Assembly (NCBI GenBank): GCA_015233115.1
Contig: JADFYJ010000023.1
Span: 525 to 33,041 of the forward strand
Length of the DNA: 32,517 nt
Origin: Candidatus Omnitrophota bacterium
GTDB taxonomy: Bacteria; Omnitrophota; Gorgyraeia; Zapsychrales; Zapsychraceae
Direction: 5' to 3'
Shown: one piece after another, positions 14,779-29,251 of the stretch
How the letters are laid out: each line of letters begins with the position of its first letter
How positions within the stretch are numbered: position 1 is the stretch's first letter
Program-made: the position numbers and the translations under genes
Notes under the pieces: model-generated
Databases searched by the model: none
Told to the model about the DNA's origin: nothing
Seen by the model: the letters and a program-made list of their open reading frames with translations, nothing else

Positions 14779-14792
14779 AAATAGATATTGTC

Positions 14793-14877
14793 GGTTGATG
14801 GTTGGTAGTTTTTGGTTTTTGGAAAAAACGAATGGGTTTAAAACCAACAACCAATAACCAACAACTAAAAACCAATT
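14793..14877. repeat. Inverted pair of period-7 GGTTGRT / ACCAAYA arrays
   Basis: The left side reads GGTTGAT, GGTTGGT, AGTTTTT, GGTTTTT (14793-14820). The right side reads ACCAACA, ACCAATA, ACCAACA, ACTAAAA, ACCAATT (14843-14877). The sides are mutually complementary in part and could form an imperfect hairpin ending in T residues, so it may act as a weak terminator or attenuator between the ATPase and the DUF192 gene. A cousin (AACCRAA repeats) lies within the start of the gene at 19302. Confidence 0.7.
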
Positions 14878-14881
14878 TTTC

Positions 14882-15256
14882 ATGTTATTTAACCAATCCC
14901 AAAACTCCCTGATTGTTTCCCGTTTAGAAATTGCCGATACTTTTTTTTCCCGAGCTAATGGCTTGTTGGGCCGGAATCAAATATCCTCGGATGAAGGGCT
15001 ATTAATTACCCGCTGTAATTCCATCCATATGTTTTTTATGAAATTTTCCATTGATGCGGTCTTTTTGGACAAAAAAAATCAAGTGGTTGGTTTGGTGGAA
15101 AACATAGGGCCCTTTCAAGTAAGCCCGGTTTTTTGGAAAGCTGACAAAGTCATTGAATTGTCCGCAGGAAGTATTTCCATAAAAAAAATCATACTTGGAA
15201 ATATTTTGTGTTATAGTAATAAATGTCCAAACACCAGTTTGGACAATAAAAAATGA
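14882..15256 (+). CDS. DUF192 family protein
   Basis: A 124-residue member of DUF192, a small beta-rich family of unknown biochemical function. The hallmark is CNSIHMFFMKFSIDAVFLD (from C45), followed by a V..V-x-L segment and ELSAGSI, matching the family pattern C.sIHt.fM.fpiD.vFld...LelpaG. No signal peptide is evident, although many homologues are exported. DUF192 genes are often found beside Tad or type II secretion genes. No Shine-Dalgarno is visible; the start follows a period-7 array. The C-terminal residues are encoded by the 9-bp inverted repeat TGTCCAAAC/GTTTGGACA, which lies before the next gene and may be a regulatory site. Confidence 0.82.
   Translation: MLFNQSQNSLIVSRLEIADTFFSRANGLLGRNQISSDEGLLITRCNSIHMFFMKFSIDAVFLDKKNQVVGLVENIGPFQVSPVFWKADKVIELSAGSISIKKIILGNILCYSNKCPNTSLDNKK
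15224..15245. promoter_or_regulatory. Palindrome TGTCCAAAC-N4-GTTTGGACA, candidate operator
   Basis: A perfect 9-bp inverted repeat (15224-15232 and 15237-15245) with loop ACCA, overlapping the end of the DUF192 gene and ending 35 bases before the start of a protein with a helix-turn-helix-like N-terminus. The half-site TTTGGACA recurs at 29292-29299 and 29306-29313 in the spacer between two divergent genes, and a shorter version, TGTCC-N5-GGACA, occurs at 28198-28212. Binding is an inference. Confidence 0.5.
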
Positions 15257-15280
15257 GTTATTAATGTATATACGAAAATT

Positions 15281-16858
15281 ATGGGTGTAACCTATAAATT
15301 AAAAGAAGAAGTGGTTAATTTTATTCTGGATGTCAAACGCGACTCTCCAGATATTAGCTGCCGACAAATATCCTCTCTTACTGCTGATAAATTCAAAATC
15401 GAAATTTCTAAATCATCTGTTAATAGCATTATTCACCGTGCTTCATTAAGTTGTTCCGTGGGCCGGCGCAATCTTTACGCCAAATTTCCTAAAAAATTTG
15501 AAATTCCTGAAGAAAAAAAGAGTGAAATTACAGAGGTTTTTCAAACCATGCAGTTGGATGAAAAAGGGAATTTAAAAGCTTTAGAGCACAAAGCGCAAGA
15601 TTCAGAAGCATCATCCGCAGGGCCAGCGCTGGTTAAAACCGTTGACAAAGCATTAGAGAATAGAAATTTAAAATTATTAGGGGTGGGCGCGAATCTTGAT
15701 AAAGAGGTTATCGTCAAGGGCCCGGTGGTTAAAGACCTTGACTATGCGGCGATCGTCTTACTAAAAATGGCGGCGCAGGATGTTTTGTCTGCCGATTTTG
15801 AATTAGATGAAGAACAGGAAGAGCGGATCATCCGGCAATGGTGCGTGGAACAGTATGCGTTAGATCCTCAGAAAATAAATCGCACATTAAAGACCGCGCA
15901 AAGTCTTTTTGGCGGAGCTCCTTTGAGGCGTCATTGGCTAGAATCGTCTCCCGATTTAAGACAGCATGTTGAAGTAGGAGCTGTTCCGATAAAGGCCGTT
16001 AAAATATTTTTAAACAATGGTCAGTCATTTTTTGTTAATGTGGACGATTTTTCTGTGCAAGAAGATATCCAAAAGATCCCCGCAATTCCATATCAAAAAT
16101 GCATCAAAGAAATATCTGAAAAGATTTTATTAAATACCCTCCCGGTGTTTTTAAAAATCGCGGAGGACATATCAGCGGAAACAAAAAATCTGGTCGTTGA
16201 CATGATATTGAAATGGAACCAGGTCACGGTTGAGAAAATATGTTTTTTGGATGAACAGAAAAACGTTTTTTTTGATATTAAGGTTGTGCCCAAGATTAGA
16301 CGCCAGGGCGGAGTATTTGTAAAAGGCGGGGGTGAAAAAACTAACCCCGAGGGCGTTCGTCAAAAAATTTCTCCGGCTTTTTTTAAAAATGAATATTATT
16401 TTACGGTCCATCAAGACCAGGGAAGCCAGACGGTCTGTATATCGAAAGATAATGATTATTCTGCCGGCTCGATTATTTTGTCTGGGCATCAGCCGTTCAA
16501 TGAACAGATTGTTTTTTCCGCTATTACATATTTTGAATTTAACGAGTCAAAAATGAAAATTTCAAACTGGCGGGGTTTTGATTTTGATTCTCAAAAAAAT
16601 TTAGAAGATAGCTGCGGAGATTTAATAATGGAAAGAGTAAAACAAAAATTCTTTTTTGAAAGTCTTCCGATAGATAAAAGCCAGTTTAAACAAATATTTT
16701 CTTTGAACGGTTCTTGGGAAGAGAAGGGGTCTCTCATCCGGATCAAATTTGCCATGCCGCCTGAGCCGGCTCTGCGCTTTGTTTTACAAGAGGCGTCCCA
16801 CAAAGCCAATTATTATTTAAAAGCCACAGATTGTTTTAAGACAGTTTGGTTGTCCTAA
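15281..16858 (+). CDS. Uncharacterised Tad-locus protein with N-terminal HTH-like region
   Basis: A 525-residue protein that I do not recognise as a named family. Residues about 5-62 (KEEVVNFILDVKRDSPDI, then SCRQISSLTADKFKIEISKS and SVNSIIHRASL) have the pattern of a helix-turn-helix of the kind found in resolvase or transposase-like N-termini. The rest has no recognisable catalytic motif: an acidic linker (70-130), a helical part with DLDYAAIVLLKMAAQDVL, and a long beta-rich region. There is no signal peptide or transmembrane helix, so it is probably cytoplasmic. It lies between the ATPase and the pilin-like gene battery and has no clear Shine-Dalgarno; a 9-bp palindrome sits just upstream. 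It may be a locus-specific regulator. Another possibility is a cytoplasmic Tad accessory protein with an adapted HTH. Confidence 0.6.
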   Translation: MGVTYKLKEEVVNFILDVKRDSPDISCRQISSLTADKFKIEISKSSVNSIIHRASLSCSVGRRNLYAKFPKKFEIPEEKKSEITEVFQTMQLDEKGNLKALEHKAQDSEASSAGPALVKTVDKALENRNLKLLGVGANLDKEVIVKGPVVKDLDYAAIVLLKMAAQDVLSADFELDEEQEERIIRQWCVEQYALDPQKINRTLKTAQSLFGGAPLRRHWLESSPDLRQHVEVGAVPIKAVKIFLNNGQSFFVNVDDFSVQEDIQKIPAIPYQKCIKEISEKILLNTLPVFLKIAEDISAETKNLVVDMILKWNQVTVEKICFLDEQKNVFFDIKVVPKIRRQGGVFVKGGGEKTNPEGVRQKISPAFFKNEYYFTVHQDQGSQTVCISKDNDYSAGSIILSGHQPFNEQIVFSAITYFEFNESKMKISNWRGFDFDSQKNLEDSCGDLIMERVKQKFFFESLPIDKSQFKQIFSLNGSWEEKGSLIRIKFAMPPEPALRFVLQEASHKANYYLKATDCFKTVWLS

Positions 16859-16898
16859 TAATAATTTGTAAGCGGTTTCACAATATCCACATATTCGA

Positions 16899-16927
16899 TT
16901 GCGGCGAGATTTTATGCGTGATATACT
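16899..16927 (+). promoter_or_regulatory. Promoter of the pilin-like gene cluster
   Basis: TTGCGG at 16899-16904 and TATACT at 16922-16927 with a 17-base spacer, about 54 bases before the first small pilin-like gene. It is the only good sigma70-like signal in the 122-base gap, and it would give the pilin genes a transcript separate from the ATPase genes. Confidence 0.62.
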
Positions 16928-16980
16928 TGAAATAGCCGCGTGAAATTATTCTCGACGAAATAGGCTGGAAGGCTTGGAAA

Positions 16981-17121
16981 ATGAAAAAAAAAGGGCAAAG
17001 TTTATTGGAATATTCTGTTGTCGCCGCGCTCGCGTCAATGGTGTTGGTGACCATGAGTACATATGTTTTTCGTTCGGTTCAGGCGGCTAAACAGCAAATT
17101 TCAAATCAGGCACAAAAATAA
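16981..17121 (+). CDS. Short Flp-type pilin-like protein (46 aa)
   Basis: A 46-residue protein. It starts with basic MKKKG, then QSLLEYSVVAALASMVLVTM, ending in a short Gln/Lys-rich helix. With cleavage after G5 the mature protein has Glu at +5 and Tyr at +6, precisely the arrangement of Flp/class III prepilins (G|xxxxEY). The remaining hydrophobic helix and tiny size fit a Flp major pilin better than any of its neighbours do. It is first after the promoter at 16899. No strong Shine-Dalgarno is seen (GGAAGGC lies a little upstream). It may be the main fibre subunit; that is an inference from size and position. Confidence 0.8.
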   Translation: MKKKGQSLLEYSVVAALASMVLVTMSTYVFRSVQAAKQQISNQAQK

Positions 17122-17140
17122 ATTATAACGGGGAGGGAAT

Positions 17141-17347
17141 ATGGGACCAGGGTTATTCAGCAGGATAAATCAAAATAAAGGCCAAAGCACGGTCGAGTAT
17201 ATCGTCTTGGTCACAGCGGTTATTGCGGTCATCATTGTGTTTTTGAGTAAGGGAGGCCCCTTTCAGAAAACGGTCAACCAGACGTTAACGGATGCCAAAA
17301 GCAGTATGAATTCGATGTCGACGAAACTTAAAAATTCCAGACCATAA
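17141..17347 (+). CDS. Flp-type pilin-like protein (68 aa)
   Basis: A 68-residue protein with a longer basic leader ending in NKG, then QSTVEYIVLVTAVIAVIIVF and a Ser/Lys/Thr-rich tail. Cleavage after that G would place Glu at +5 and Tyr at +6. The size is close to Flp/PilA pilins. A strong GGGAGGG precedes the ATG, which suggests high expression, so it is the second candidate for the major pilin. It is 19 bases downstream of the 46-residue pilin-like gene. Confidence 0.85.
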   Translation: MGPGLFSRINQNKGQSTVEYIVLVTAVIAVIIVFLSKGGPFQKTVNQTLTDAKSSMNSMSTKLKNSRP

Positions 17348-17382
17348 TTAATCGGGAATATATAAAATTTCAAGGAGGAAAT

Positions 17383-17748
17383 ATGTTAAAAAGAATTTGC
17401 CAAAATAAAAGAGCTCAAAATACCGCGGAGTACGCGATTTTGATTTCGTTGGTTGTCGCGGGGGTAATGGCTATGCAGCAGTTTGCTCAGCGCGCCCTTC
17501 AGGCCAGGGAAAGAGACGCCAGTGTTTTTTTAGCCAAATCAACTAACGGGATCGGCAACACTGTCCAGTATGAACCGTATTATAAAAAATCGGATTCCAA
17601 TAAGAATACCAGCGAAACCAAAAGTACGAATATTAATGGCACAAAAGATACCCGTTCGACAAAATCAGGCGAAACCGGCTATACGAATGAAGTCACAAAG
17701 TATGATACAGCAACGACAGATAAAAGAATTGATACAAACGGTTTCTGA
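17383..17748 (+). CDS. Pilin-like protein, A-1 type, with Ser/Thr/Asn-rich tail
   Basis: A 121-residue protein. Leader MLKRICQNKRA, then QNTAEYAILISLVVAGVMAM. The residue before the predicted cut is Ala instead of Gly; Glu is at +5. After the helix come QRALQARERDASVF and VQYEPYY, then a long tail dominated by Thr, Ser, Asn, Lys and Asp. The QAR...YEPYY segment recurs in the protein at 18230, so the two are paralogues. AAGGAGG stands 7 bases before the ATG, the best Shine-Dalgarno of the cluster. It is probably a minor pilin or pseudopilin; the exact role is unknown. Confidence 0.82.
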   Translation: MLKRICQNKRAQNTAEYAILISLVVAGVMAMQQFAQRALQARERDASVFLAKSTNGIGNTVQYEPYYKKSDSNKNTSETKSTNINGTKDTRSTKSGETGYTNEVTKYDTATTDKRIDTNGF

Positions 17749-17787
17749 TAAATAAAAATTTAATTTTAAAAAGGGGGAGGAGCAGAT

Positions 17788-18144
17788 ATGTTAAAAAAAA
17801 TGAACTTCAAGAGAGGCAAGGGACAAAGTACGCTGGAATACGCGATTTTAATCATTATTATTGCCGCGGCTTTGCTTTCCATGCAGGCTTATATTAAACG
17901 GGGCATTTCGGGAAGAATGAAACAGTCGGCTGACGATATTGGCGGACAGTTTTCACCGGGAAATACTAAAGTTAATAAAGTGGTTACAAAAAGTTCCACT
18001 GTTCACGAAACGTTTATCAATGGTCAGGCGACTACGGATACGGGCAATGAAAAAACGAATACCACAGATACGACGACTATTCTGGACACAACCAAAGAAG
18101 ATTGGGGAAGTGGTTTAAATAAAGCGACGAATAGCACGAAATAG
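17788..18144 (+). CDS. Pilin-like protein with GRxKxxADDIG motif
   Basis: A 118-residue protein. Leader ending RGKG, then QSTLEYAILIIIIAAALL. After the helix: YIKRGISGRMKQSADDIGGQ, then a Thr/Asn/Asp-rich tail. The R-G-x-x-G-R-x-K-x-x-A-D-D-I/V-G-x-Q pattern is shared with the protein at 18959 and, in weaker form, with that at 26030, so they form a subfamily. GGGGGAGGAG precedes the start. After it comes a small hairpin and then a larger one (18144-18226), so transcription may be partly attenuated here. Confidence 0.83.
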   Translation: MLKKMNFKRGKGQSTLEYAILIIIIAAALLSMQAYIKRGISGRMKQSADDIGGQFSPGNTKVNKVVTKSSTVHETFINGQATTDTGNEKTNTTDTTTILDTTKEDWGSGLNKATNSTK

Positions 18145-18226
18145 TCATCTGGGATGACCATCATTTTTGAACTAAGGGGCGGTAAAGTGTGGTGAGAGTA
18201 GTCGAACCATTAACGAACCGCCCCTT
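18144..18226 (+). promoter_or_regulatory. Two stem-loops between pilin-like genes, possible attenuator
   Basis: GTCATC/GATGAC (18144-18149 and 18153-18158) forms a small hairpin followed a few bases later by ATTTTTG. Then AAGGGGCGGT (18174-18183) pairs perfectly with ACCGCCCCTT (18217-18226) across a 33-base loop. The second stem ends 4-13 bases before the next start codons (18230 or 18239), where no Shine-Dalgarno is present. Confidence 0.6.
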
Positions 18227-18229
18227 TAT

Positions 18230-18613
18230 ATGAGACATATGTTAAAAATAAAAAAAAATTTGAACGGGCAAATTCTGGCGTCTGAATATGTGGTGGTTTT
18301 TTCTGTCGTCGTAGGGATGATTGTGGCCATGACGGTTTTTGTGAAGAGGTCGTTTCAGGCGCGGCTGATTGATTCGCGGGATTACATGATTAGGACAGTA
18401 AAAACTCAAACCCGGGGCGTTAATCTGGCCGGGAATATTCAGGCGGAGTATGAGCCGTATTATATAAAACAGGTCAGGTTGTCAGGATCGAGTCAAAATG
18501 AACAATCGCAGATTTTGCCCGGCAGTCAAAACGGAGTTTTTATTAAGTCTTTTTCCCAGCAATATTCAGAAAGCAAAAATGTAATCTATCTTCCTCCCGC
18601 GGAGGCAAAGTAG
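18230..18613 (+). CDS. Pilin-like protein with shifted Glu (GQILASEY) and YEPYY motif
   Basis: A 127-residue protein. Leader with K-K-N-L-N-G, then QILASEYVVVFSVVVGMIVA. The Glu-Tyr pair is one residue later than in its neighbours (+6 rather than +5 if cut after G). Downstream are VKRSFQARLIDSRDYM and AEYEPYYIKQ, shared with the protein at 17383. The tail is Ser/Gln-rich and ends PPAEAK. The start could be 18230 or the ATG at 18239 (MLKIKK, like the MLK starts of its neighbours). Neither has a Shine-Dalgarno, and both sit at the foot of a strong stem-loop, so translation may be low or controlled. Confidence 0.78.
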   Translation: MRHMLKIKKNLNGQILASEYVVVFSVVVGMIVAMTVFVKRSFQARLIDSRDYMIRTVKTQTRGVNLAGNIQAEYEPYYIKQVRLSGSSQNEQSQILPGSQNGVFIKSFSQQYSESKNVIYLPPAEAK

Positions 18614-18619
18614 CCGGAT

Positions 18620-18952
18620 ATGTTAAAACGGAATAGTCATAATAACGAACAAAGAGCGCAAACCTTTGTGGAATATTCCATGGTTATCGGTGTGATTATG
18701 CTGACTTTGATAGCGATGCGACCCATGCTGATTCGCGGCGGGCAGAGCATGGTGAAAGTGATGACCGATCAGGTGGGAAATCAACAAGCGGCAGAACAAG
18801 ATTTTAGTCAGGGATATATGAAAAAACAAATTTCACGAGGCAATGCTTTTTCACAAAAATTTAAAAAAGAACGCCGAGGGACGTATGGTTATGAATATAA
18901 CGAAAGCACGATAACCAATACGGAAATGGTGACGAATATGGGAGTAAAATAA
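18620..18952 (+). CDS. Pilin-like protein, A-1 type (110 aa)
   Basis: A 110-residue protein. Leader MLKRNSHNNEQRA, then QTFVEYSMVIGVIMLTLIAM. Ala precedes the predicted cleavage site and Glu is at +5. The post-helix region LIRGGQSMVKVMTDQVGNQQ is a diverged version of the R-G...K..ADDIG.Q motif of its paralogues. The tail is Lys/Arg/Asn-rich. It lies 6 bases after the preceding stop, with only a weak GCCGGA upstream, suggesting coupled translation. It is likely a minor pilin. Confidence 0.8.
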   Translation: MLKRNSHNNEQRAQTFVEYSMVIGVIMLTLIAMRPMLIRGGQSMVKVMTDQVGNQQAAEQDFSQGYMKKQISRGNAFSQKFKKERRGTYGYEYNESTITNTEMVTNMGVK

Positions 18953-18958
18953 AACTTT

Positions 18959-19261
18959 ATGATAAATAAACGAGGGCAGTCGACTTTGGAATATTTGGTT
19001 TATATGACGGTTATCATCGCGGTGTTTGTAACCGTGTCTACCTATTTTAAACGGGGAGTGGCTGGACGGTGGAAAGCGGCGGCGGATGATGTGGGCGATC
19101 AATATGATCCGCGGACCGCGGAATCGAACGTGCTATATACGGTAAAAGGTGAATCAGCGACCATATTAAAAGTGATCGAGACTAAAAACGGACAATATAC
19201 AGAACGCACGGATTTAAGTAATATGATAGAAACGAAAACCGGAAATACTGTGGTGCGGTAA
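18959..19261 (+). CDS. Pilin-like protein with GRxKxxADDVG motif (100 aa)
   Basis: A 100-residue protein. Short leader MINKRG, then QSTLEYLVYMTVIIAVFVTV. G is at -1, Glu at +5 and Tyr at +6. FKRGVAGRWKAAADDVGDQY follows and is nearly the same as in the protein at 17788. The tail is Thr/Glu/Lys-rich and ends VVR. No Shine-Dalgarno is evident; the start lies 6 bases after the previous stop. The near-identity of the post-helix motif to its paralogue suggests that the motif contacts a common partner in the fibre base or the TadB/TadC platform. Confidence 0.82.
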   Translation: MINKRGQSTLEYLVYMTVIIAVFVTVSTYFKRGVAGRWKAAADDVGDQYDPRTAESNVLYTVKGESATILKVIETKNGQYTERTDLSNMIETKTGNTVVR

Positions 19262-19301
19262 AAGTGGTAAGGGTGGTAAAAGAAAAAGCGATTGGTATGA
19301 G

Positions 19302-20639
19302 ATGAATAAAAATTTGTTAAACCGAAAACCAAAAACCAAAAAACGTCCTTCTCTGGGGCAAGTCATGTTGGAATTGGCTGTTTTCGCGGCGGTGGTGCTG
19401 TTTGTGATGGGGATGATTATTAAGCAATCCATGGATGCTAAATACGCGTTGAGCGGGGGATTGCAGGCGTTAAGGACAACCTTAAGACTGTCTTATCTGG
19501 AATCAAAAGGGAAAGGAACGAACGGGGGAGGCAAAGACGGAAATAAATCGCGCAATAACGCGACGGTGACACTGGTCGAAGACCGGTTGGACGCGGCTTC
19601 AGGAAAAATGGACAGCAAAGACCGCGCTCCGCGGATGTCCCAGGCCGCTGGTACCGCGAGTATAAATTTGTTTTTGCCGACGGATAACGGAGAAACGTTC
19701 AATGATCCGGTTCAGGATTTTTATATAAATGACCAGCATTTTGTTTTATCTACGGGAAAAATGGAAAAAAAGAGTCCCGTGTCCGTATGGGAACGGATTA
19801 TGAACGGGGATAAAGATTATTGGGATGCCAGTAAAGGAGAAAGATTTTATCCTTACCGCGACGGACAGAAACAGATTCCTCCCCAATTATGGAAAAATTT
19901 TGAATGGCAGTGGTTAAAGCTTTCCGCGGGGTCAGTGAGTACCAAAAAAGGGAAACACACGTCGGTTGATATTGATAATGATCTCAAAGAAGAAACAGTC
20001 ATTGGTAATACTGGCGGATCCTGGTGGGTTCAGGATGATCAGGACGGTGATATCGATATGACGTATGATAAGTGGGATGGATATGTTTATAGTGAATGTT
20101 ATGGTATTGACGTAGATGGTTATGAGTTTGTGAAAAGTGAAACTCCGGCGGATCTTCCTTCCGGCGCTTGTGGGACGACCCGCTGGCGTTCAGGAATGGT
20201 CAATAACGCGAAGTTTCGTTCTCAGCAGGCTGACGGGACTTATTTATGGATCGAGGAAGGTCAGTTGTATGCCAAAGATCCGAAGAGCTCAGTATATTCT
20301 ACCCAGCAGTTTTCCCGTTCAGTCCGCGGAAAAAATCAGGTGGATTTGATTGAACGGCAGATCCGGTTAGCTAAATACAATCCAGAGATATTGAAGAGAA
20401 ACCGCGGCATAACGAAATGTTCATCCGGTCCAGCGTGTTGTGAAAATATCGACGGAAATTGTGTTTATACCGGGACGGGTGCCGGTAAATATGAAACAGT
20501 TATTATGCCGGGAGGGAAAGCCAGACAAGGCCGGTATCTGCCGGTTATGTATATCCGCTCGGCGATCTCAGATACCCGGGGACGCAAATGGATCACGGAT
20601 ATATCTAATAAAAACGCGGATAAAGTATTTGGGCCGTAA
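19302..20639 (+). CDS. Large TadE/pilin-like protein (445 aa) with Asp-rich loop
   Basis: The N-terminus RPSLG, then QVMLELAVFAAVVLFVMGMI, has G at -1 and Glu at +5, followed by DAKYALSGGLQALRTTLRLS, like TadE/TadF pseudopilins. It then carries an exposed region of about 380 residues, far beyond the usual TadE length of about 170-200. Visible features are an Asp-rich segment DDQDGDIDMTYDKWDG (about 245-260) that resembles a calcium-binding loop, DIDNDL just before it, and cysteines concentrated at SECYGIDVDG, SGACG and KCSSGPACCENIDGNC. The leader lies in a period-7 AACCRAA repeat. No recognised catalytic domain is seen. It is a candidate pilus-tip or adhesive minor pilin and is followed 2 bases later by another pilin-like gene. 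Confidence 0.75.
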   Translation: MNKNLLNRKPKTKKRPSLGQVMLELAVFAAVVLFVMGMIIKQSMDAKYALSGGLQALRTTLRLSYLESKGKGTNGGGKDGNKSRNNATVTLVEDRLDAASGKMDSKDRAPRMSQAAGTASINLFLPTDNGETFNDPVQDFYINDQHFVLSTGKMEKKSPVSVWERIMNGDKDYWDASKGERFYPYRDGQKQIPPQLWKNFEWQWLKLSAGSVSTKKGKHTSVDIDNDLKEETVIGNTGGSWWVQDDQDGDIDMTYDKWDGYVYSECYGIDVDGYEFVKSETPADLPSGACGTTRWRSGMVNNAKFRSQQADGTYLWIEEGQLYAKDPKSSVYSTQQFSRSVRGKNQVDLIERQIRLAKYNPEILKRNRGITKCSSGPACCENIDGNCVYTGTGAGKYETVIMPGGKARQGRYLPVMYIRSAISDTRGRKWITDISNKNADKVFGP

Positions 20640-20641
20640 GC

Positions 20642-20899
20642 ATGAAAAAAAACAACCGGGCACAGATGACCTTAGAATTCATTTTTTGTATGATCGTGGT
20701 ATTTTTGATCATCTATAGTTTGACCAAGGTGATGGCTTGGTCAGGCAAAGGATTTGTGGGAATTTTTCAGGCTCACCATGATGATCTGAAGGGTGGAAAA
20801 TATATTGATAAGCTGGATTCAGAATTTGGACAAGACGCACAGATGGCAAAAGATATGAACAGTGTTTATACGGGAAAAAATCCTGGTCAGAAGGAATGA
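20642..20899 (+). CDS. Small TadE-like pseudopilin, A-1 type (85 aa)
   Basis: An 85-residue protein. Leader MKKNNRA, then QMTLEFIFCMIVVFLIIYSL, with Ala at -1, Glu at +5 and Phe at +6, and then a short charged tail (KYIDKLDSEFGQDAQMAKD). TadE-like pseudopilins often have an aromatic residue after the Glu. It starts 2 bases after the preceding stop and ends just before the TadG-like giant gene, so all three are probably translated from one message. The short size suggests a helper in initiating the fibre or in mounting the giant protein. Confidence 0.76.
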   Translation: MKKNNRAQMTLEFIFCMIVVFLIIYSLTKVMAWSGKGFVGIFQAHHDDLKGGKYIDKLDSEFGQDAQMAKDMNSVYTGKNPGQKE

Positions 20900-20900
20900 T

Positions 20901-23900
20901 ATGACGCGTAATAAAAAGGGACAAATAGCCATTGTTTTACTGCTGGTTTGCGCCATGGCTTTGATTTTTTACGCGGCGGTTTTGAATATTCAAAAAGCCG
21001 GGGAAAATAAAATGGGATTATCTACGGCCGGGGCTTTGTCCGCGACCACTATGTCTTCTGAATTAGGGAGTTATGGTCAGCAGTTGTTTAAGGAGCAAAT
21101 GGGCGGGAAAATGCAAATATGCAAAGGTTCCTGGTTTGCCCTTTTTGAACTTTTTATTGGTCCTCCTACGCCGGGCTTCCTTATCAATCTTCAAATCACT
21201 CAACCTAAAATTACCAGCTCGTGGAACAAAATGATGTCGAAAAAAAGTTCTCAGGTGGACCAATTTTCTGAGGCAGGGCTTCAGGTCGCCATGCAAGGTC
21301 TGGTGAATGACACTAAAGAAGTTCCGGATTTGTTGGATTTAAATGATGATGGTTTTTATGGCTTTGATGATAAAGGTAATCCAAAAGATAAAATAAGCCG
21401 TTATACATATTATTACACTCAACGGGTGCGTCCGACGAAGAAAGACAAGTCAAGCGGGAATACGGACACACTCGCGGATAATACAGATGTGGTGACGATG
21501 AACGTGCCGTTTGTGATGAAAAAATTTCAAAACGAATTGGCAGATTTTTTATATGATAATCCCAATGGCTTAACAGACCAGCTTCAAGACGATCCTTTGT
21601 GCCGCGCTCAACCATTTGTTTATGTGGACTCATCCAAAAAAGATATTTGCGGGAATGATTATGGTATTACAGAATCCGCGGTTGAAGATCAGAAAAAAAA
21701 TACCGCGGCTAATCCGGCTTATGATGAAGATTACCGGAAAAAATGTCCTCAGCGGCAAAAAGACCACTGGGCGCTGTTTGATCCGGTTCCGGTTAGGCCA
21801 TGCGTTTATAGTGATAAAAGTACAGTGGTGCCGGTGGACGAGAATGTGAATAGTGAAAACTTGAATTATGCTGATGCTGAGGTTCCTTATTCTTATCCGG
21901 TTACGGACTTGAGCCATGTTTGCCATAGTCAGGGCGACAAAGATGCTGATAAAAATATTCCCGCTGAATGTAATCCGTGTTGTGTGCCGCCCGATCTTCA
22001 GCCATTGGCCAATGGCAAAACAGCGAATCTTTTGCCGGATTGTTGTAATTGCGCGGCTACCGCGCCCCGTCCGGAATATCTGTTGGATGGCGAGTTGTGT
22101 CAAGCTTATGTCAGCGCGGGGGGAAAGCCGGAAAATTGTCCTAAGGATCCGCAGTCTTGTGATGGAACGTTTGGCTCGAGCGGTGGATCGGCTTTGCAAT
22201 GCGGGTCAACATCGACGTGTGATTTTAATTCGCCGTATGCTTCCTTTAATCCCTTTTCCCAGGCAAACTACCCGTTTGTTTATAACGCGGCTTTAGATGA
22301 CTGGAAAAAATACAGTGATGGTGTGAACTGGACGCAATTTGATTGGGCGAATTATGATTGGGTTGGGAATGACTCCTTGCCTAATGAGCAGGACAAGCGG
22401 ACGTTTGTTTTTACTAAATTGTTCGGCGCGGATGACCGGAATAAAAATTATTTTAGGGATCCTCGGTTGGTGAGCGATTATTTCGCTCATCCGCAAGAAG
22501 TGCCGCATACGTGCGGATTCCAAGGATTCCGAATCGAAGATACAACCGGATATCAGACGGATGTCCGTTTATTTCCGGCGAAAGATCAAAAGCCGGGCTT
22601 TATATTTCCTTTTCTGTACAAAATTTCGGACTGGGGTCTGGATTTATCCAATCTCCATCCAGAAGCGGCGAATAAAGATCCGATCAATTTTCCGTCTTCA
22701 GCCAGCAGTTTAAAGGCCGATCCATTGTATAATTATTACCATAAATATTGGGAGGGGGCAGAAGATCAAATCAGTCCGAACGTACCAAGAGACGTGACGA
22801 ATGTGGACGTGACCAATGCCGCTTTTCATCAGAATTATATCAACGCGCCAGAAGGAAAAGAGTATATCTTGGCCTTAGACCAGTGGCTGGATTCCCGGAA
22901 CGTGCTCGATCAGGACTCCAGACGGATTATTGAAAATAATTTCAGCCGGTATATTAGCGCGCAGTGCGCGGATTATCAGGTGAATAGGTTCACTTGTTCC
23001 GGAGCGGGAATGGTGATTAAAGACCAGAACGATAATGACTTGCCGGTAGCGCCGGGCCTCATGAATAATGATCCGTGCCAGCGGAAAAATAACCGGGTTT
23101 GCGACGAGGATTTGTGTTTAACCGCGGCCGGAACAAATGTTTCGTGGGATGACAGAGAAGATTGTTACGGGAATAATTATGATTATAAACTTAATGATGG
23201 TGTGTCTACGGATGCCAACGGGCCATATACGCAGAACAATCCATACGCTCAGGAAGAGGCTAAATATAAATGGGATAATTTGTTCCCTCCGGAGTTAGAA
23301 GGCCGCTGGGTTCTGCCGAATCGGAAAATTAACAGCGATACCGCCCGCCGGGTGATTTATGGATACGATGGAACAACCATGAGCAAAACCACGGCCCTGT
23401 ATGTGAATTTAAAATACGGAAGCAACGTGATTGACGGGATAGATAAGAATCTTCCTGGATCGCCGGCAGCGCTGGATTTGGTGACTGTGCAGGGTAATCC
23501 GGTCAACCTGGTGGCGAAGGAAGACATTCTGAATTTGCGGGCTCCGACTCAAGAAGCAGAGTGCGCGGAAGGGGCTATTTATGATAACGCGGATATTGGG
23601 ATGTGGCGTAAAGGCTGGGATCAATATTGTTCCGTCGAGTATCCTTACGATCAACACTGTGACAAAAATAAGCCGCAGCCTTGGGCCATGTCTTTGCTGA
23701 AAGAGGATCCGCTCAATAGTTGCGCGTACACGCAAGACACGGCATCAGCGGAAGATCCGGTTATTGACGTGTCAAATCCTTTAGATCTTACAGGGGTCCC
23801 CGGCAACGCGGCCAATGATAATACTTCGGCGCAAGGTCCGCAGGTTAATGCGTCGCAAGACTGCAGCTGCGCGGCAAAGGAAGTGGATAAAGAAGATTTT

Positions 23901-26027
23901 CCGGATGATGTTTTGGATCGGGTTCAGGATCAGGTTCACGAATTTATTGTCTGGGCCCAAGGGATTGTCAACACGAATCCGACGGAGCTGGCGGATACTT
24001 TTGGAGAATGGTATTATCCGGCGGCAGCGTATCTTTTCGAAGCAGCGGCTTCTTGCGAGAAAGGCAATCCGTATTGTTCGCCTTGCGATACCAAAATATC
24101 CGACGCGGATATTCTCGCGAATAAGAAAGTTCAGGACCAGCATTATTTGTGTTACGCGAACACGAATTTGTCTCCGGGAGGAGGCATGCATTATTGGCTC
24201 AACGCGTTTAGGATGACGCGGGACAGAATCCAAAAATTTATTGATCATAAGTCTGTAACTCCGGATGACAATTGCTATCAGGCGTTTTGCGCGCCGAGTC
24301 AGACCTGTATGGATAAGGCTGGCTTTTACATTAATGACGCTGAAAAACAAATTTTAAATTCCAACACGGGCTTGGATCAAACGTTGGAATGTTTAAACTG
24401 GAACGCGAATGACGCCGTGAGTTGGCGTGAAGATACGTTCCCTATTTCCTCAGAAAGAAAAGAAGCGTCTTGGCCTCGGGATGAAAAAGGTCTTTTTGAT
24501 ACCAAGGGCGACGCGGTTAAATTTTATACCTGCGGACAAACGTGCAGTGCGGAATATTGCGGCAACGCCTCCTCGCCTTTGCCCAGGTCTATTGTTCCGG
24601 ATTATGATCCGGGAGAGTATGTCCGAAATCCGGGGAAGAGTCAGGATCCATATTTATCTATTTTATTAAATTGCTGGGATTCATGTGACAGCACGGCATG
24701 TAATGCCGCGGCCAATCAATTGGACCCTAATTGGTCGGGATATTCTCAAATGATCGAGAGTGGCCGTCTTGACTTGTTGCCTAATGATGTTTTGAAGTTA
24801 CAAGCCATGGCCAATAACATAAGAAATAATCCGTATTTTTCATTGTGGTCTGCCAGTGGAAATGTGGTTGAAAATACTGTTAAAGGGGTGCTTTTCCCTC
24901 GTTTAGTTTCCTGGAAAACCGACGGTTCCGAATGTCTGCGCGCGCCTAACCCGGATATTTCCGGCGAGAATGTGATATTAACCGGTGCAGGCCTTTCACC
25001 AACAAGCTCTTGGTATAACGCCATAGTCAACAGCATGAAATTAGCGGGCGGAGATATGTGCGATCCAAGTCCGTCGGGCTGGTTAGGTAAGACCCGGCAA
25101 AGCGCGGTCGAAGCGGAAAATCAAGTGGTAAAAATGCGCCGGCGATTAGATTTTCTAAATAAAAGAAAACATGAAGCGGAATATATCCGGGACAATATTA
25201 TTGGTCAAGATTACACCAGTCAGACCGCCAAGACGGATCAAGCCAAAGGAATATTATGGCATGTGGGTAAATTTTTAAGCTGTGATAAAGATCCGCTGTC
25301 GGGCGAATATGTGGGTCCGGCGTGTAATTTAATCAAGGCCCGGCACCAGTTTGATTACATCGGGAAGCCCTTGTCCGCGGCTAATGGGAGCGGCGGCTTG
25401 GGGGATTCTAAGAGCGGCACTAAAACGTCTAACCCTAAATACACGACGGATATTATTTATGGGTGGCGCAGCGAGGGCACGAAAAAAAATGGAAAAGATC
25501 AGAAAGACGGACGCTGGCACATTGTACGCGCTCAAGTGTGGATGCCGCAAAAAGGGATGAGTCAAAAATGGCCATGGGTTAAAACCTGGACTAAGCTTTT
25601 TAATACCACCCGGTGTTTCGCGATGTGGGATCATAGCAGCACAGTTTATTCACGGGTTAGCCGGTGGGATGAAAGCAGTCCTGGTGGACTCACTTTTCCT
25701 AATGGGGTGAGACTTTGGGATTTTCGGTATGGGGGAGGATCGAAGAAAAAAGCCGACGATATTGAAAATGTTTGTAATACGGATGGGGAAGATAATCCGT
25801 TATATCAAATTTATAAAGGAAAAGCCGGATCTTATTATACGACGGATCAATTGAAAGATACTTTAGATGGCGCCTTTTTCTTAAATAATGACGGGAAGGA
25901 TAAAAAGGATTGTGTGGCGCTAGCCAAAGATTTGTTGGACTTGGGCACAGAAGAAAACACCTGTTCGGCTTATAAGTTGTCGAGCGGCGGGTATAAATTA
26001 TCTTTGAAAACGGGTTGTAAAAAATAA
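20901..26027 (+). CDS. Giant Cys-rich TadG-like surface protein (1708 aa)
   Basis: The N-terminus MTRNKKG, then QIAIVLLLVCAMALIFYAAV and NIQKAGENKMGLSTAGALSA, matches TadG: basic leader, one helix without the +5 Glu (Val there), then the residues where TadG has D/N..R..LQ.AADAAALA. The remaining ~1640 residues are predicted to be outside. By my count there are about 53 cysteines, many in clusters (NPCCVPP, DCCNC, CAPSQTCMDK, CGQTCSAEYCG, CWDSCDSTAC), with abundant Asp, Asn, Trp and Tyr. No catalytic motif is recognisable. TadG proteins are normally about 300-600 residues. The start at 20901 has AAGGA 5 bases upstream; the in-frame start at 20862 lies inside the previous gene. It is probably a disulfide-stabilised adhesin or tip protein, inferred from position and composition. 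Confidence 0.78.
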   Translation: MTRNKKGQIAIVLLLVCAMALIFYAAVLNIQKAGENKMGLSTAGALSATTMSSELGSYGQQLFKEQMGGKMQICKGSWFALFELFIGPPTPGFLINLQITQPKITSSWNKMMSKKSSQVDQFSEAGLQVAMQGLVNDTKEVPDLLDLNDDGFYGFDDKGNPKDKISRYTYYYTQRVRPTKKDKSSGNTDTLADNTDVVTMNVPFVMKKFQNELADFLYDNPNGLTDQLQDDPLCRAQPFVYVDSSKKDICGNDYGITESAVEDQKKNTAANPAYDEDYRKKCPQRQKDHWALFDPVPVRPCVYSDKSTVVPVDENVNSENLNYADAEVPYSYPVTDLSHVCHSQGDKDADKNIPAECNPCCVPPDLQPLANGKTANLLPDCCNCAATAPRPEYLLDGELCQAYVSAGGKPENCPKDPQSCDGTFGSSGGSALQCGSTSTCDFNSPYASFNPFSQANYPFVYNAALDDWKKYSDGVNWTQFDWANYDWVGNDSLPNEQDKRTFVFTKLFGADDRNKNYFRDPRLVSDYFAHPQEVPHTCGFQGFRIEDTTGYQTDVRLFPAKDQKPGFIFPFLYKISDWGLDLSNLHPEAANKDPINFPSSASSLKADPLYNYYHKYWEGAEDQISPNVPRDVTNVDVTNAAFHQNYINAPEGKEYILALDQWLDSRNVLDQDSRRIIENNFSRYISAQCADYQVNRFTCSGAGMVIKDQNDNDLPVAPGLMNNDPCQRKNNRVCDEDLCLTAAGTNVSWDDREDCYGNNYDYKLNDGVSTDANGPYTQNNPYAQEEAKYKWDNLFPPELEGRWVLPNRKINSDTARRVIYGYDGTTMSKTTALYVNLKYGSNVIDGIDKNLPGSPAALDLVTVQGNPVNLVAKEDILNLRAPTQEAECAEGAIYDNADIGMWRKGWDQYCSVEYPYDQHCDKNKPQPWAMSLLKEDPLNSCAYTQDTASAEDPVIDVSNPLDLTGVPGNAANDNTSAQGPQVNASQDCSCAAKEVDKEDFPDDVLDRVQDQVHEFIVWAQGIVNTNPTELADTFGEWYYPAAAYLFEAAASCEKGNPYCSPCDTKISDADILANKKVQDQHYLCYANTNLSPGGGMHYWLNAFRMTRDRIQKFIDHKSVTPDDNCYQAFCAPSQTCMDKAGFYINDAEKQILNSNTGLDQTLECLNWNANDAVSWREDTFPISSERKEASWPRDEKGLFDTKGDAVKFYTCGQTCSAEYCGNASSPLPRSIVPDYDPGEYVRNPGKSQDPYLSILLNCWDSCDSTACNAAANQLDPNWSGYSQMIESGRLDLLPNDVLKLQAMANNIRNNPYFSLWSASGNVVENTVKGVLFPRLVSWKTDGSECLRAPNPDISGENVILTGAGLSPTSSWYNAIVNSMKLAGGDMCDPSPSGWLGKTRQSAVEAENQVVKMRRRLDFLNKRKHEAEYIRDNIIGQDYTSQTAKTDQAKGILWHVGKFLSCDKDPLSGEYVGPACNLIKARHQFDYIGKPLSAANGSGGLGDSKSGTKTSNPKYTTDIIYGWRSEGTKKNGKDQKDGRWHIVRAQVWMPQKGMSQKWPWVKTWTKLFNTTRCFAMWDHSSTVYSRVSRWDESSPGGLTFPNGVRLWDFRYGGGSKKKADDIENVCNTDGEDNPLYQIYKGKAGSYYTTDQLKDTLDGAFFLNNDGKDKKDCVALAKDLLDLGTEENTCSAYKLSSGGYKLSLKTGCKK

Positions 26028-26029
26028 CC

Positions 26030-26365
26030 ATGAATAGAATAAAAGCTCAGTCACTTTCGGAGATTATGTTATTGCTCGCCATTATAGCTGGTGTTATGAT
26101 CATTATGCAAAAGTACGTTTTAAGGACGCTCATGGGCCGGACCAAAATGGCCGCGGAACAAATCGGCTTTGGGCATCAATATCAGGCGGATAATACTTTG
26201 GCGTGTTTGTATGTTAATAGTGAAGGAAAATGGTATCCTGAAGATTGCGCCCGGGAACACGGGGGAACAGCCTTTAGTTGCCCAGAATGCGCGGATAATT
26301 GCACGAACAACAAGCACGGGCACCTGACTGTGGATTATAAAAAATGTAATAATATAAACAAATAA
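26030..26365 (+). CDS. Pilin-like protein with Cys-rich tail (111 aa)
   Basis: A 111-residue protein. Leader MNRIKA, then QSLSEIMLLLAIIAGVMIIM, with Ala at -1 and Glu at +5 but Ile instead of Tyr at +6. LRTLMGRTKMAAEQIGFGHQ is the diverged GRxKxxADDIG motif of the proteins at 17788 and 18959. The tail differs from theirs: it has LACLYV, EDCARE, SCPECADNC and KKCNN, that is seven cysteines. It begins 2 bases after the giant Cys-rich gene, so the two may be joined by disulfides or act together. That is an inference from co-location and composition. Confidence 0.78.
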   Translation: MNRIKAQSLSEIMLLLAIIAGVMIIMQKYVLRTLMGRTKMAAEQIGFGHQYQADNTLACLYVNSEGKWYPEDCAREHGGTAFSCPECADNCTNNKHGHLTVDYKKCNNINK

Positions 26366-26398
26366 AACTTTGTTCAATAACCTCCAAAGGTCTTTCAT

Positions 26399-27253
26399 AT
26401 GCTCACGGGTGTTTTATTATTGGCGTTTGTCTCGGTCGGCTTTATTGCTTTGACTGTTATTCCTATTGTTGAAAAATGGCTGGCAGTGGCCAGCGCGACG
26501 CAGGAACAACAGCTGATGGAACAGATGGAACCATTGATGGCTAAACAAAAAGCCAAAAAAATGGGGTATCTATTTATTATGTGTCCGCTCGTTTTGGGTG
26601 GAGCCGGGTATTATTTTTTTCCGGATTTGGCTATGTATGCTGTTCCGATCGGAATTGGTTTTGGGATTATCTGTCCCTATTTTATTGTGAAGTCCATTAT
26701 CAAGCGCAATCAGGATAAATTTCAGGACCAGCTGATCGACGCGCTTTTGATTATGTCCAGCTCGTTTCGCGGAGGCTTGAGTTTGGTTCAGGCCTTGGAG
26801 GCGGTGGTTGAAGAAATGCCGGATCCGATTCAGTCGGAATTCGGGCTGGTTTTGGCGGAGAATAAAATGGGCGTGTCTTTGGAAGACGCGATGCAGCATT
26901 TGTTCCGCCGTATGCCTTCGATACCGTTGCAACAGATGATCACCGCGATTTTATTGGCCCGGGAAACCGGAGGCAACTTGCCGATTATTTTCGGACGGAT
27001 CGTAAATAATATTCGCGAACGCAAAAAGGTAAGACAAAATCTGGACACATTGACGATTCAGGGAAAAATTCAGGGTGTGGTTATGACGGCTTTGCCGGTC
27101 GGGTTCGCGTTTATCGTTTATTCGACGGACCGCCGGGTTTTTGACCATATGTTAAAATCTCCGCTGGGTCAAAAGCTGTTGATCGCGGCTTTTATCTTAT
27201 GGGTGGTCGGCGCGTTTATGATATGGAAAATTAGTAAATTTGACGATTTTTAA
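26399..27253 (+). CDS. tadB: Tad inner-membrane platform protein TadB
   Basis: A polytopic inner-membrane protein of the type II secretion F (T2SSF) family. It has one N-terminal helix (about 3-24), two helices at about 57-98, a cytoplasmic T2SSF domain (about 108-215) and two C-terminal helices (about 220-278). Signatures are DQLIDALLIMSSSFRGGLSL, then QALEAVVEEMPDPIQSEF and LLARETGGNLPIIFGRI, typical of TadB. TadB and TadC form the membrane platform on which the TadA ATPase drives subunit extraction. In most loci it directly follows tadA; here about 11.6 kb of other genes lie between. It starts 33 bases after the Cys-rich pilin-like gene with only a weak AAAGG upstream. Confidence 0.92.
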   Translation: MLTGVLLLAFVSVGFIALTVIPIVEKWLAVASATQEQQLMEQMEPLMAKQKAKKMGYLFIMCPLVLGGAGYYFFPDLAMYAVPIGIGFGIICPYFIVKSIIKRNQDKFQDQLIDALLIMSSSFRGGLSLVQALEAVVEEMPDPIQSEFGLVLAENKMGVSLEDAMQHLFRRMPSIPLQQMITAILLARETGGNLPIIFGRIVNNIRERKKVRQNLDTLTIQGKIQGVVMTALPVGFAFIVYSTDRRVFDHMLKSPLGQKLLIAAFILWVVGAFMIWKISKFDDF

Positions 27254-27265
27254 CAAGGAACAACC

Positions 27266-28141
27266 ATGATATCCATTTTGCTTTTGATGGTTTATTTCAG
27301 CGTGTTTAGTTTCATTTTGGGACTGTTGGTGCCTGAATGGGAAGCGCGGCCAACGTTAAACGCGTTTGGGGAAGAAATTTACCAGAAAAAAACGCGCAAA
27401 GGTTTTAGTATCTTGACGCTGTTGGGTGTGATTAATAAGCCAGTCGTAGCGCTTTTAGGGTCTTCGAAAAAACAACTTATCCGGGATCTCGCGATAGCCC
27501 GGGTGGATTATACTCCGGAAGAATTTTTTGTTTTGAGAGAAGCCGCGATTGCTTTTTTGCTGTTTATTTTTAATCCGATGGTTAAACCGGATACGTTTTT
27601 GTTTTATATTTGTGTGTCTTTGGCGTGCGGATATCTTTTACCGAGTATATGGCTCAATGGCCGCATTAGGGCGATTAAAAATACCCTCGTGAAAGAACTG
27701 CCGGACGCGATTGACCTGTTGGCTTTGTGCGTGAACGCGGGTTTGGATTTTATGCTGGCTTTGCGCTGGGTGGTGGAAAAGTCGCCCCCGTCTTTGATGA
27801 TGACGGAGCTTAATAATTTGCTTCAGGAAATCAATATTGGTAAAACCCGGCGAGACGCGATTCGTGATTTAGCGGCCAGATATCAACTGCCAGATTTGTC
27901 AACCTTCGCGCGAACCCTGGTTCAGGCAGACAAAATGGGTACGTCTGTGACCGAAGCCTTAAATATTCTTTCAGAAGATATGCGTTTGTCCCGTTTCCGC
28001 CGCGGCGAACAAATGGCCTTAAAAGCTCCCATGAAAATGCTCATTCCCCTCCTACTTTTTATTTTCCCAGTTGTAGGTATCCTGGTAGCCGGCCCCATCC
28101 TGTTGGATTTTATAGAAAATAGTCCGTTTAAGGCGATGTAA
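27266..28141 (+). CDS. tadC: Tad inner-membrane platform protein TadC
   Basis: The second T2SSF-family platform protein, 291 residues. A helix lies at about 2-22, a pair at about 92-132, the T2SSF domain at about 145-255 and the final helices at about 258-283. Motifs include KELPDAIDLLALCVNAGLDF, then ALRWVVEKSP and FARTLVQADKMGTSVTEALN, followed by RGEQMALKAPMKMLIPLLLF, all characteristic of TadC. CAAGGAAC lies just before the ATG, 12 bases after tadB stops. It is the last gene of the plus-strand Tad locus. No strong terminator follows at once, but a convergent gene begins about 80 bases on. Confidence 0.92.
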   Translation: MISILLLMVYFSVFSFILGLLVPEWEARPTLNAFGEEIYQKKTRKGFSILTLLGVINKPVVALLGSSKKQLIRDLAIARVDYTPEEFFVLREAAIAFLLFIFNPMVKPDTFLFYICVSLACGYLLPSIWLNGRIRAIKNTLVKELPDAIDLLALCVNAGLDFMLALRWVVEKSPPSLMMTELNNLLQEINIGKTRRDAIRDLAARYQLPDLSTFARTLVQADKMGTSVTEALNILSEDMRLSRFRRGEQMALKAPMKMLIPLLLFIFPVVGILVAGPILLDFIENSPFKAM

Positions 28142-28149
28142 TATAAAAT

Positions 28150-28214
28150 AGGCAAAGAGGCAATAGGCCATAGGTGATAGGTAAAAATATCATTTAATGT
28201 CCGAACTGGACATT
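28150..28214. repeat. Period-7 AGGYNAT array and palindrome between convergent genes
   Basis: AGGCAAT, AGGCCAT, AGGTGAT and AGGTAAA follow one another at 28158-28185, with a further AGGCAAA at 28150. AATGTCC (28196-28202) then pairs with GGACATT (28208-28214) across GAACT. The palindrome lies between tadC and the minus-strand gene, where it could act as a weak bidirectional terminator. It also resembles the TGTCC palindrome at 15224. Confidence 0.6.
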
Positions 28215-28222
28215 TATGGATT

Positions 28223-29134
28223 TTAAAGGATTATATTATTCATCTTTTTCTGTTTGGACAAATATTCCTCAACGTAGTCTTTAATAACAAATCCGAAAAG
28301 TAAAACCTGCAGGAAATATTGAACTCCTACCAAAATATAGGCTGTTTTATCGATTAAATTGAGATGAAGTGGAGTAAAAAGATTAATTTGGACAAAATTT
28401 GTGGAAATTAGGCATCCAAAAGTATATGACAAAAGTAAAAAAATGGAGCAAATTTCAAAAAGTCGGGCTTCCCTTAACCGCTTGATATTGCTGGCTAAAC
28501 GAATTTTTCTGATCAATAGGCATGCTATACCTAAAAAAACTAAACCTTTAACCGCTATAATCCAATACGGCGTTAAAACGCCGAAATTGCCAGGCATCTG
28601 AAAAGCTGATTTATACATAAATGGAAAAGCTATTCCAGTAACTAAAAGCGGAAAAATCCACGTGGTATGAGGTATTTTTTCATCTGTCCGGTCAGAAAAG
28701 ATTTTATGAATAAGAATGCTTGCGGAAAATATAGGTAAACCTAATAAAGCTAAATCTTTGTAATAAAACAATAGAAAAAGGCATCCAGCTATATAGTAAA
28801 CCGGCCTGCTTCCGGCAAAAGCGATCAATATCCCTGCGAAAATAAAAACCGCGGAACCTTTTAAAGGGTAAGCCGTAATCCCAAACACCTGCTGTTCATT
28901 TCCCGAAACTCCAAATCCGAATATTCTGTAAATCGCGAAAATAATAATAAATACCATAAACCAAGGTGAAAAAACGCAATTTTTTCCAACAGACAAAATA
29001 AAAATTAAGGAAAAAATAAAAGCCAAAATAAATATGTCCAAAGAGACGCAAGACAAATAGACCATAACTGGAAAAAATGTTAACAGCAAAAACAATAGTG
29101 ATAGCAAGAGATTTTTAACCGATGGGATTTTCAT
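28223..29134 (-). CDS. Multi-pass membrane protein of unknown function
   Basis: A 303-residue, strongly hydrophobic protein with roughly eight to ten transmembrane segments (first helices in NLLLSLLFLLLTFFPVMVYL and DIFILAFIFSLIFILSV) and a Lys-rich C-terminus (YLSKQKKMNNI). No family is recognisable. It lacks the GxGD and paired Asp of class III prepilin peptidases, so it is not the missing TadV/CpaA. The DNA is more AT-rich than the Tad genes, hinting at separate origin. The start is set at 29134 (MKIPSVKN), because a good promoter (29142-29170) leaves only 7 bases before that ATG. The in-frame ATG at 29170 overlaps the -35 box. The message would be essentially leaderless, and no Shine-Dalgarno is present. 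It converges with tadC. Confidence 0.72.
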   Translation of the reverse strand: MKIPSVKNLLLSLLFLLLTFFPVMVYLSCVSLDIFILAFIFSLIFILSVGKNCVFSPWFMVFIIIFAIYRIFGFGVSGNEQQVFGITAYPLKGSAVFIFAGILIAFAGSRPVYYIAGCLFLLFYYKDLALLGLPIFSASILIHKIFSDRTDEKIPHTTWIFPLLVTGIAFPFMYKSAFQMPGNFGVLTPYWIIAVKGLVFLGIACLLIRKIRLASNIKRLREARLFEICSIFLLLSYTFGCLISTNFVQINLFTPLHLNLIDKTAYILVGVQYFLQVLLFGFVIKDYVEEYLSKQKKMNNIIL

Positions 29135-29141
29135 ACTACAG

Positions 29142-29170
29142 ATTGTATCAGAAAAACATAATAGACACAA
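29142..29170 (-). promoter_or_regulatory. Promoter of the leaderless membrane-protein gene
   Basis: On the minus strand TTGTGT (29170-29165), a 17-base spacer and TACAAT (29147-29142) precede the ATG at 29134. With 7 bases between the -10 box and the ATG, transcription would begin at or next to the start codon. The -35 hexamer TTGTGT is the same as in the promoter proposed at 9015. Confidence 0.65.
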
Positions 29171-29187
29171 GATTTAATGGTTGCGGT

Positions 29188-29212
29188 GTAGGGGCGGTCT
29201 CCTGATCGCCCG
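29188..29212. repeat. GTAGGGGC-type REP-like palindrome
   Basis: GTAGGGGCGGTCTCCTGATC continues with GCCCG. GGGCGGTC (29192-29199) pairs with GATCGCCC (29204-29211), with one G-T pair and a 4-base loop. Short stems beginning GTAGGGGC are known as repetitive extragenic elements in many bacteria. No other full copy is in the window. Confidence 0.6.
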
Positions 29213-29251
29213 TTAATAAATTGTCGTATTTTCATCCATCGTTTTTTCATT

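Follow-up and report, generated by a model that had tools for sequence, protein, structure and literature searches.

Tad pili are usually described as a polymer of the Flp pilin together with two or three minor pilins. Subunits capping the tips of type IV filaments lack the glutamate at position +5 (Glu5) (PMC10191384), and the tips of the Kil Tad pilus of Myxococcus comprise three minor pilins plus adapters, the minor pilins being large and containing many predicted disulfides (PMC12075869). For Omnitrophota, Seymour et al. (2023) analysed TadB, TadC, RcpA, TadZ, and Flp, and the available parts of that report describe no eleven-slot battery, fixed gene order, hairpin, or anti-sigma link (PMC10066038). 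The subject of the present analysis is a Tad locus in a 32,517-nucleotide (nt) stretch of DNA from a Candidatus Omnitrophota bacterium (contig JADFYJ010000023.1, positions 525 to 33,041), hereafter the window, to which all coordinates refer. It is an unusually elaborate and conserved Tad pilus locus, in which eleven consecutive pilin-like genes form an ordered set recurring in related genomes. A conserved locus of eleven slots would be, to our knowledge of the literature, the most elaborate single Tad locus known. The one studied species of Omnitrophota attaches to and kills other cells, and the set offers a parts list for how members of the phylum contact prey or hosts.

Pilin-like genes

The Tad (type IVc, T4c, pilus) locus lies on one strand and, according to Pfam, comprises genes for a peptidyl-prolyl isomerase (PPIase), RcpC, the secretin, a TadZ–TadA protein, a DUF192 protein, a helix-turn-helix (HTH)-like protein, the eleven pilins, TadB, and TadC. 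The pilin genes, numbered as slots 1 to 11, are as follows (aa, amino acids; E, expectation value; the N-terminal motif is given for each product):

16981-17121, plus strand: slot 1, Flp pilin, 46 aa, GQSLLEY; Flp_Fap, E = 0.0019
17141-17347, plus strand: slot 2, 68 aa, GQSTVEY; Class_IIIsignal, E = 3.7e-5, just above the Pfam cut-off; 33 family members
17383-17748, plus strand: slot 3, 121 aa, QAR..YEPYY type, AQNTAEY; 33 family members, Glu5 in 32/32
17788-18144, plus strand: slot 4, 118 aa, GRxKxxADDIG type, GQSTLEY; alignment of 34
18230-18613, plus strand: slot 5, 127 aa, Glu at +6, GQILASEY
18620-18952, plus strand: slot 6, 110 aa, AQTFVEY; 31 family members, all put in this slot by held-out profiles (see below)
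18959-19261, plus strand: slot 7, 100 aa, GRWKxxxDxxGDQYDP type, GQSTLEY; alignment of 31
19302-20639, plus strand: slot 8, 445 aa, cysteine-rich family, probable tip subunit in a TadE/KilL-like position, GQVMLEL; family median 12 cysteines
20642-20899, plus strand: slot 9, 85 aa, TadE-like, AQMTLEF
20901-26027, plus strand: slot 10, 1708 aa, TadG/KilN-like, without Glu5, cysteine-rich, GQIAIVL; family median 44 cysteines
26030-26365, plus strand: slot 11, 111 aa, cysteine-containing relative of slots 4 and 7, AQSLSEI; 34 family members, median 8 cysteines

A preliminary description, made from the letters alone, had claimed eleven consecutive pilin-like open reading frames (ORFs) between 16981 and 26365, coding for 46 to 1708 residues, with Glu at +5 in nine, shifted to +6 in the gene at 18230 and absent from a TadG-like one. 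All eleven ORFs lie there and read as described, the sizes are right, and the N-termini agree. A strict form of the processing motif (two or more K/R, then [GA]Q-xxx-E, then a hydrophobic 15-mer) is found in exactly nine ORFs of the window, the same nine that have Glu at +5. Over the window and related loci together, 261 of 351 pilin-slot ORFs carry it, as against none of 3,828 other six-frame ORFs, which rules out chance occurrence. Of 30 slot 5 orthologues, 26 share the Glu at +6, and the absence of Glu from slot 10 is near-universal among its orthologues; both are therefore family traits and not local mutations.

Most of the eleven products match no Pfam pilin family. In the slot 1 family Flp_Fap is matched at E ≤ 0.01 by 25 of 28 members (best 3e-7), the window copy falling below the curated cut-off. 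TadE is matched by 11 of 31 members of the slot 9 family (best 2.4e-5) and by 1 of 32 members of the slot 8 family (1.4e-4), with no match in the window's own genome. The product of 20901, for which an in-frame GTG upstream at 20862 would give 1721 aa, is termed TadG-like from its N-terminus, size, and missing Glu5; it gave no Pfam match and no fold match. The two sub-families proposed earlier are confirmed. The products of 17788 and 18959 match each other at E = 1e-14 (1.8e-34 between the profiles of the two families), 26030 matches 17788 at 2e-6, and 17383 matches 18230 at 2e-7. The product of 18620, assigned to the first sub-family, has no partner within the window at 1e-3, but a match to the 17788 family, at roughly 1e-4 to 1e-9, is given by many of its orthologues. 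Slot 4 is also related by profile to the Flp slot (E = 2e-12).

Conservation and gene order

Gene content was read up to 20 kb around TadB in relatives, 43 of 55 of which have a TadB match. The lack of a TadB match in the other 12 is due in part to contig breaks, several of these genomes having pilins or TadZ–TadA on other contigs. A scan of genome contigs with TadB yielded 80 loci, nearly all labelled Omnitrophota and a few carrying other labels. The family order that recurs is, in window sizes, Flp-68-121-118-127-110-100-445-85-1708-111, followed by TadB and TadC. All eleven slots are present in 26 loci, spanning several families of the order, and their arrangement is identical in 23 of these; in the other three only the 26030-type gene (slot 11) has moved, to between slots 7 and 8. 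Recurrence of the same ordered set in related genomes had been named beforehand as the check on the preliminary description, and homologous loci are found to carry the whole set, not only one or two of its genes.

The slots are distinct and present in single copy in most genomes. The unit of slots 2, 3, and 4 is duplicated in tandem in two genomes (G015 and G042), and single slots are duplicated in others. The slot 8 ORF of G015 (709 aa; L047:11105-13234) also matches slot 9 and appears to be a fusion of neighbouring pilins, while in G003 masked N bases produce an artefactual 24,300-aa frame that extends into TadB. Across the phylum, the slot 4 profile matches 97 of 237 sampled genomes, nearly all in the same class. 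More distant members have a looser set, often missing the slot 5 family and sometimes with TadB/TadC in the middle of the run. Velamenicoccus archaeovorus LiM, a cultured predator, has a comparable battery, with thirteen pilin-like ORFs in a run before TadB; it lies inside the Tad region (12382-29832) for which expression in co-culture with Methanosaeta has been reported (PMC10066038).

Hairpin between slots 4 and 5 and cysteine content

Within the run, no gap is wider than that between slots 4 and 5 (median 121 nt), which in the window contains the following element:

18174-18226, plus strand: hairpin, probable terminator or attenuator, z = -4.7 against dinucleotide shuffles

A hairpin with z < -2 is found in this gap in 22 of 28 loci (median z -4.6), often followed by T. 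Terminator-like structures occupy it in 18 of 28 loci, as compared with 0 to 6 of about 30 at any other gap; the count of 6 belongs to the gap preceding slot 1. The stems differ in sequence between genomes, although a stem of the GGCTTACTTGGG type is common to many. From the terminator-like hairpin after slot 4, high expression of slots 1–4 and lower expression of slots 5–11 is predicted, and it suggests a set of four abundant and seven minor subunits, which turns the terminator into a prediction of subunit stoichiometry.

The slots also divide by the cysteine content of their tails, the medians being zero in slots 1–7 and 9, and 12, 44, and 8 in slots 8, 10, and 11, respectively. By analogy, the cysteine-rich products of 19302, 20901, and 26030 and the TadE-like product of 20642 resemble a tip of the Kil type.

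Nature of the pilus

Since the eleven genes recur in nearly the same order across the order, a filament assembled from many specialised components is probable, and we consider it fairly likely that the products of all eleven genes belong to a single multi-subunit filament, a composite Tad pilus whose tip is elaborate. In such a pilus, a prepilin peptidase would cleave the precursors before the conserved Gln, and the TadZ–TadA fusion ATPase, together with TadB/TadC, would extrude the subunits via the RcpA secretin. Slots 1–4 (46, 68, 121, and 118 aa), transcribed ahead of the hairpin, would provide abundant shaft or coat subunits, slots 5–7 minor or adapter pilins, and slots 8–11 (445-aa cysteine-rich, 85-aa TadE-like, 1708-aa Glu5-less, and 111-aa cysteine-containing) the distal tip, by analogy with TadE/F/G or KilL/M/N. 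Contact with a surface or another cell would be made by this tip, and the pilus may be used in attachment or predation. A composite fibre of many minor pilins had been suggested in the preliminary description; a dedicated, ordered, and conserved set has been established, and the fibre itself is what we infer from it.

Several observations weigh against the composite pilus or limit its support. Held-out assignment speaks for it, in that family profiles made from other loci returned 348 of 350 genes to their own slot (both exceptions were truncated slot 10 genes), but because slots were first assigned by similarity this figure measures separability and is not wholly independent proof, the gene order being the independent part. 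G001, the nearest relative and a genus-mate, has no hairpin after slot 4. No prepilin peptidase of the Peptidase_A24 family (TadV) was found in the window or in its own 91% complete assembly; this is probably an assembly gap, and as 52 of 55 relatives carry an A24 peptidase, a shared enzyme of this type may serve prepilin processing.

Structure prediction, proposed earlier as a further check, agreed with the long N-terminal helix and gave no pilin packing beyond it in the models of slots 4 and 10. The AlphaFold2 model of slot 4 (17788) has a confident helix at residues 15–52, with a predicted local distance difference test score (pLDDT) of 96 in the best 10-residue block, followed by an uncertain four-strand beta tail (pLDDT about 50; mean of the model 60). 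That of an 809-aa slot 10 orthologue has a helix at residues 5–66 and a fairly confident C-terminal beta region, with an uncertain insert of some 300 residues and a mean pLDDT of 58. A Foldseek comparison of these two models with the PDB, for which they are too uncertain, gave no significant match. No solved homologues of slot 4 were found, and those of Flp were weak matches only, to geopilin, PilA, and Flp pilins. The predicted N-terminal helix is thus compatible with a pilin, while the models give no filament packing beyond it.

It is also conceivable, albeit unlikely in our estimate, that only the 46-aa Flp protein polymerises, with the TadE/F/G-like slots 8–10 at the tip, and that slots 2–7 and 11, though processed as prepilins, remain in the inner membrane or the periplasm and act there in assembly, priming, or regulation. 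It is slot 1 that matches Flp_Fap, the pilus components of known Tad machines are given as Flp, TadE, and TadF (PMC10191384), and the segment that follows the helix in slots 3 and 4 also occurs in non-pilin membrane proteins (see below); however, slots 2–4 precede the terminator together with slot 1, so that high co-expression is expected, they keep an invariant Glu5, to which the docking of subunits in filaments is attributed, and several genomes have them duplicated in tandem. The distinctness of the slots and their mostly single copy speak against several alternative filaments or interchangeable tips being made by one machine, with subsets used according to condition or target like the four Kil tips of Myxococcus. 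The Kil tips are indeed interchangeable (PMC12075869) and the tails of several paralogous slots divergent, but each Omnitrophota locus has a single set of tip-like genes and its slots form one run, whereas the Kil tips are encoded in separate clusters; we judge this arrangement decidedly unlikely.

It is hardly credible that the majority of the set are mutually unrelated proteins, anchored in the membrane and with just a class III signal peptide in common. Although most are without a Pfam pilin family and their tails without a known fold, slots 4, 7, and 11 are mutually related, as are slots 3 and 5, slot 4 is related to the Flp slot as reported above, and the set has a fixed order within a Tad locus. 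Our preferred reading is the composite Tad pilus described above.

Core Tad machinery and neighbouring genes

By Pfam, the window contains a TadA-type ATPase, single-domain TadB and TadC, the RcpA secretin, RcpC, and TadZ, with TadZ and TadA forming one protein. The genes around the pilin run are:

9086-9973, plus strand: PpiC-type periplasmic prolyl isomerase upstream of the Tad genes, Rotamase_2 7e-16; also a neighbour in 13 loci
9986-10858, plus strand: RcpC/CpaB, PF16976 1.3e-25
10882-12528, plus strand: RcpA/CpaC secretin with a C-terminal TonB_C domain, Secretin 9e-45, TonB_C 2e-12
12613-14778, plus strand: TadZ–TadA (CpaE–CpaF) fusion, 721 aa, AAA_31 1.7e-14 at 4-168, T2SSE 1.5e-60 at 366-636
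14882-15256, plus strand: DUF192 protein, conserved neighbour, PF02643 1.7e-17
15281-16858, plus strand: conserved protein with an N-terminal HTH-like domain, directly before the pilins, HTH_32 5e-4, below the Pfam cut-off
26399-27253, plus strand: TadB platform protein, T2SSF 3.5e-19
27266-28141, plus strand: TadC platform protein, T2SSF 2.4e-14

TonB_C at the secretin C-terminus is found in 21 of 21 family members, and full-length TadZ–TadA fusions of 718–774 aa are also present in related loci, two of them in tandem in G039. The protein encoded by 15281-16858 is conserved yet fast-evolving, in related loci too follows DUF192 and precedes the first pilin, and matches HTH_32 (E up to 0.1) in 19 of 26 family members. 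Downstream of TadC, 29704-31941 codes for a 745-aa protein with a C39-peptidase-like domain (Pfam). The sole match in an Rfam search was a tRNA.

Pilin-like segment in anti-sigma-type proteins of relatives

The slot 4 profile, built from pilins only, also matched 30 larger proteins in 22 genomes of relatives (L162, L163, L164, L165, L173, L174, L184, and others). Their matching segment corresponds to the post-helix pilin stretch RGxQGRLKSAxDDIGDQF, often followed by the slot 3 motif YEPYY, without the leader or Glu5. The carriers are anti-sigma/VWA (YfbK), DUF4349, and 2,000–2,700-aa proteins, and the usual place of the segment in those of the anti-sigma and DUF4349 types is directly after the membrane helix. 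Sixteen of the 30 were scored as YfbK/VWA type; an extracytoplasmic function (ECF) sigma-like gene, called by sequence patterns rather than by profile search, lies directly upstream of 14 of these 16 and of three further proteins. Among representatives, Pfam found VWA with vWF_A in three (YfbK_C where the C-terminus is present), two of which also have zf-HC2; DUF4349 was found in two other proteins, and a further two gave no match. Some genomes with such proteins have no pilin locus in their assemblies. No such large protein was found at the threshold used in the window's genome or in LiM, and a search of the former for an anti-sigma homologue, run without a positive control, was empty. Recent DNA copying as the source of the segment is unsupported, as own-genome pilins are seldom its best DNA match; at the protein level, own-genome similarity ranks high in several cases.

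Pilin sensing has a precedent in PilS–PilA (PMC6058289), and loss of the anti-sigma factor MucA can be triggered by a pilin (PMC3684759). The sequences suggest signalling from the pilus to transcription. Tentatively, the Tad pilus may be wired to transcription in this order through ECF anti-sigma-type proteins (zf-HC2, one membrane helix, VWA/YfbK) that carry a copy of the membrane-proximal segment of the pilins, so that the pilin pool or the state of the pilus could be sensed via competition for a common partner or protease. The segment makes such pilus-to-gene signalling directly testable.

Comparison with known systems

The locus shares with the Tad/Flp pilus of Aggregatibacter and Caulobacter RcpC, the secretin, TadZ, TadA, TadB, TadC, and a short Flp pilin, and putatively a TadE-like minor pilin and a large, Glu5-less TadG-like pilin. 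It differs in having eleven slots rather than Flp plus TadE/F/G, in the fusion of TadZ to TadA, in the TonB_C domain of the secretin, in the absence of TadV from the window, and in a TadG-like protein without a recognisable VWA domain. Within the same phylum, for which a Velamenicoccia Tad complex has been described (Seymour et al. 2023; PMC10066038), LiM has the equivalent locus.

The predatory Kil pilus of Myxococcus (PMC12075869) likewise has a major Flp pilin, adapter pilins, and a tip of large disulfide-rich minor pilins, and shares its predatory context with LiM. Nevertheless, the Kil tips are encoded by four separate clusters of three genes, whereas the Omnitrophota genes form one unbroken run of eleven, in which, Flp and the trio resembling a tip apart, seven small pilins have no known counterpart in Kil, as compared by description. 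The heterotrimeric KilL/M/N tip has been linked experimentally to killing, and a needleless type III secretion system (T3SS) is linked to the Kil system; the likeness of the Omnitrophota set is one of gene content, with large cysteine-rich pilins and a small TadE-like one, and may be read as analogy. In Caulobacter, CpaL is a minor pilin fused to VWA (PMC12607857), which similarly ties a pilin module to a VWA domain and surface sensing; in Omnitrophota, however, the VWA domain with the pilin-derived segment sits not on a tip pilin but on an ECF anti-sigma-type protein encoded elsewhere.

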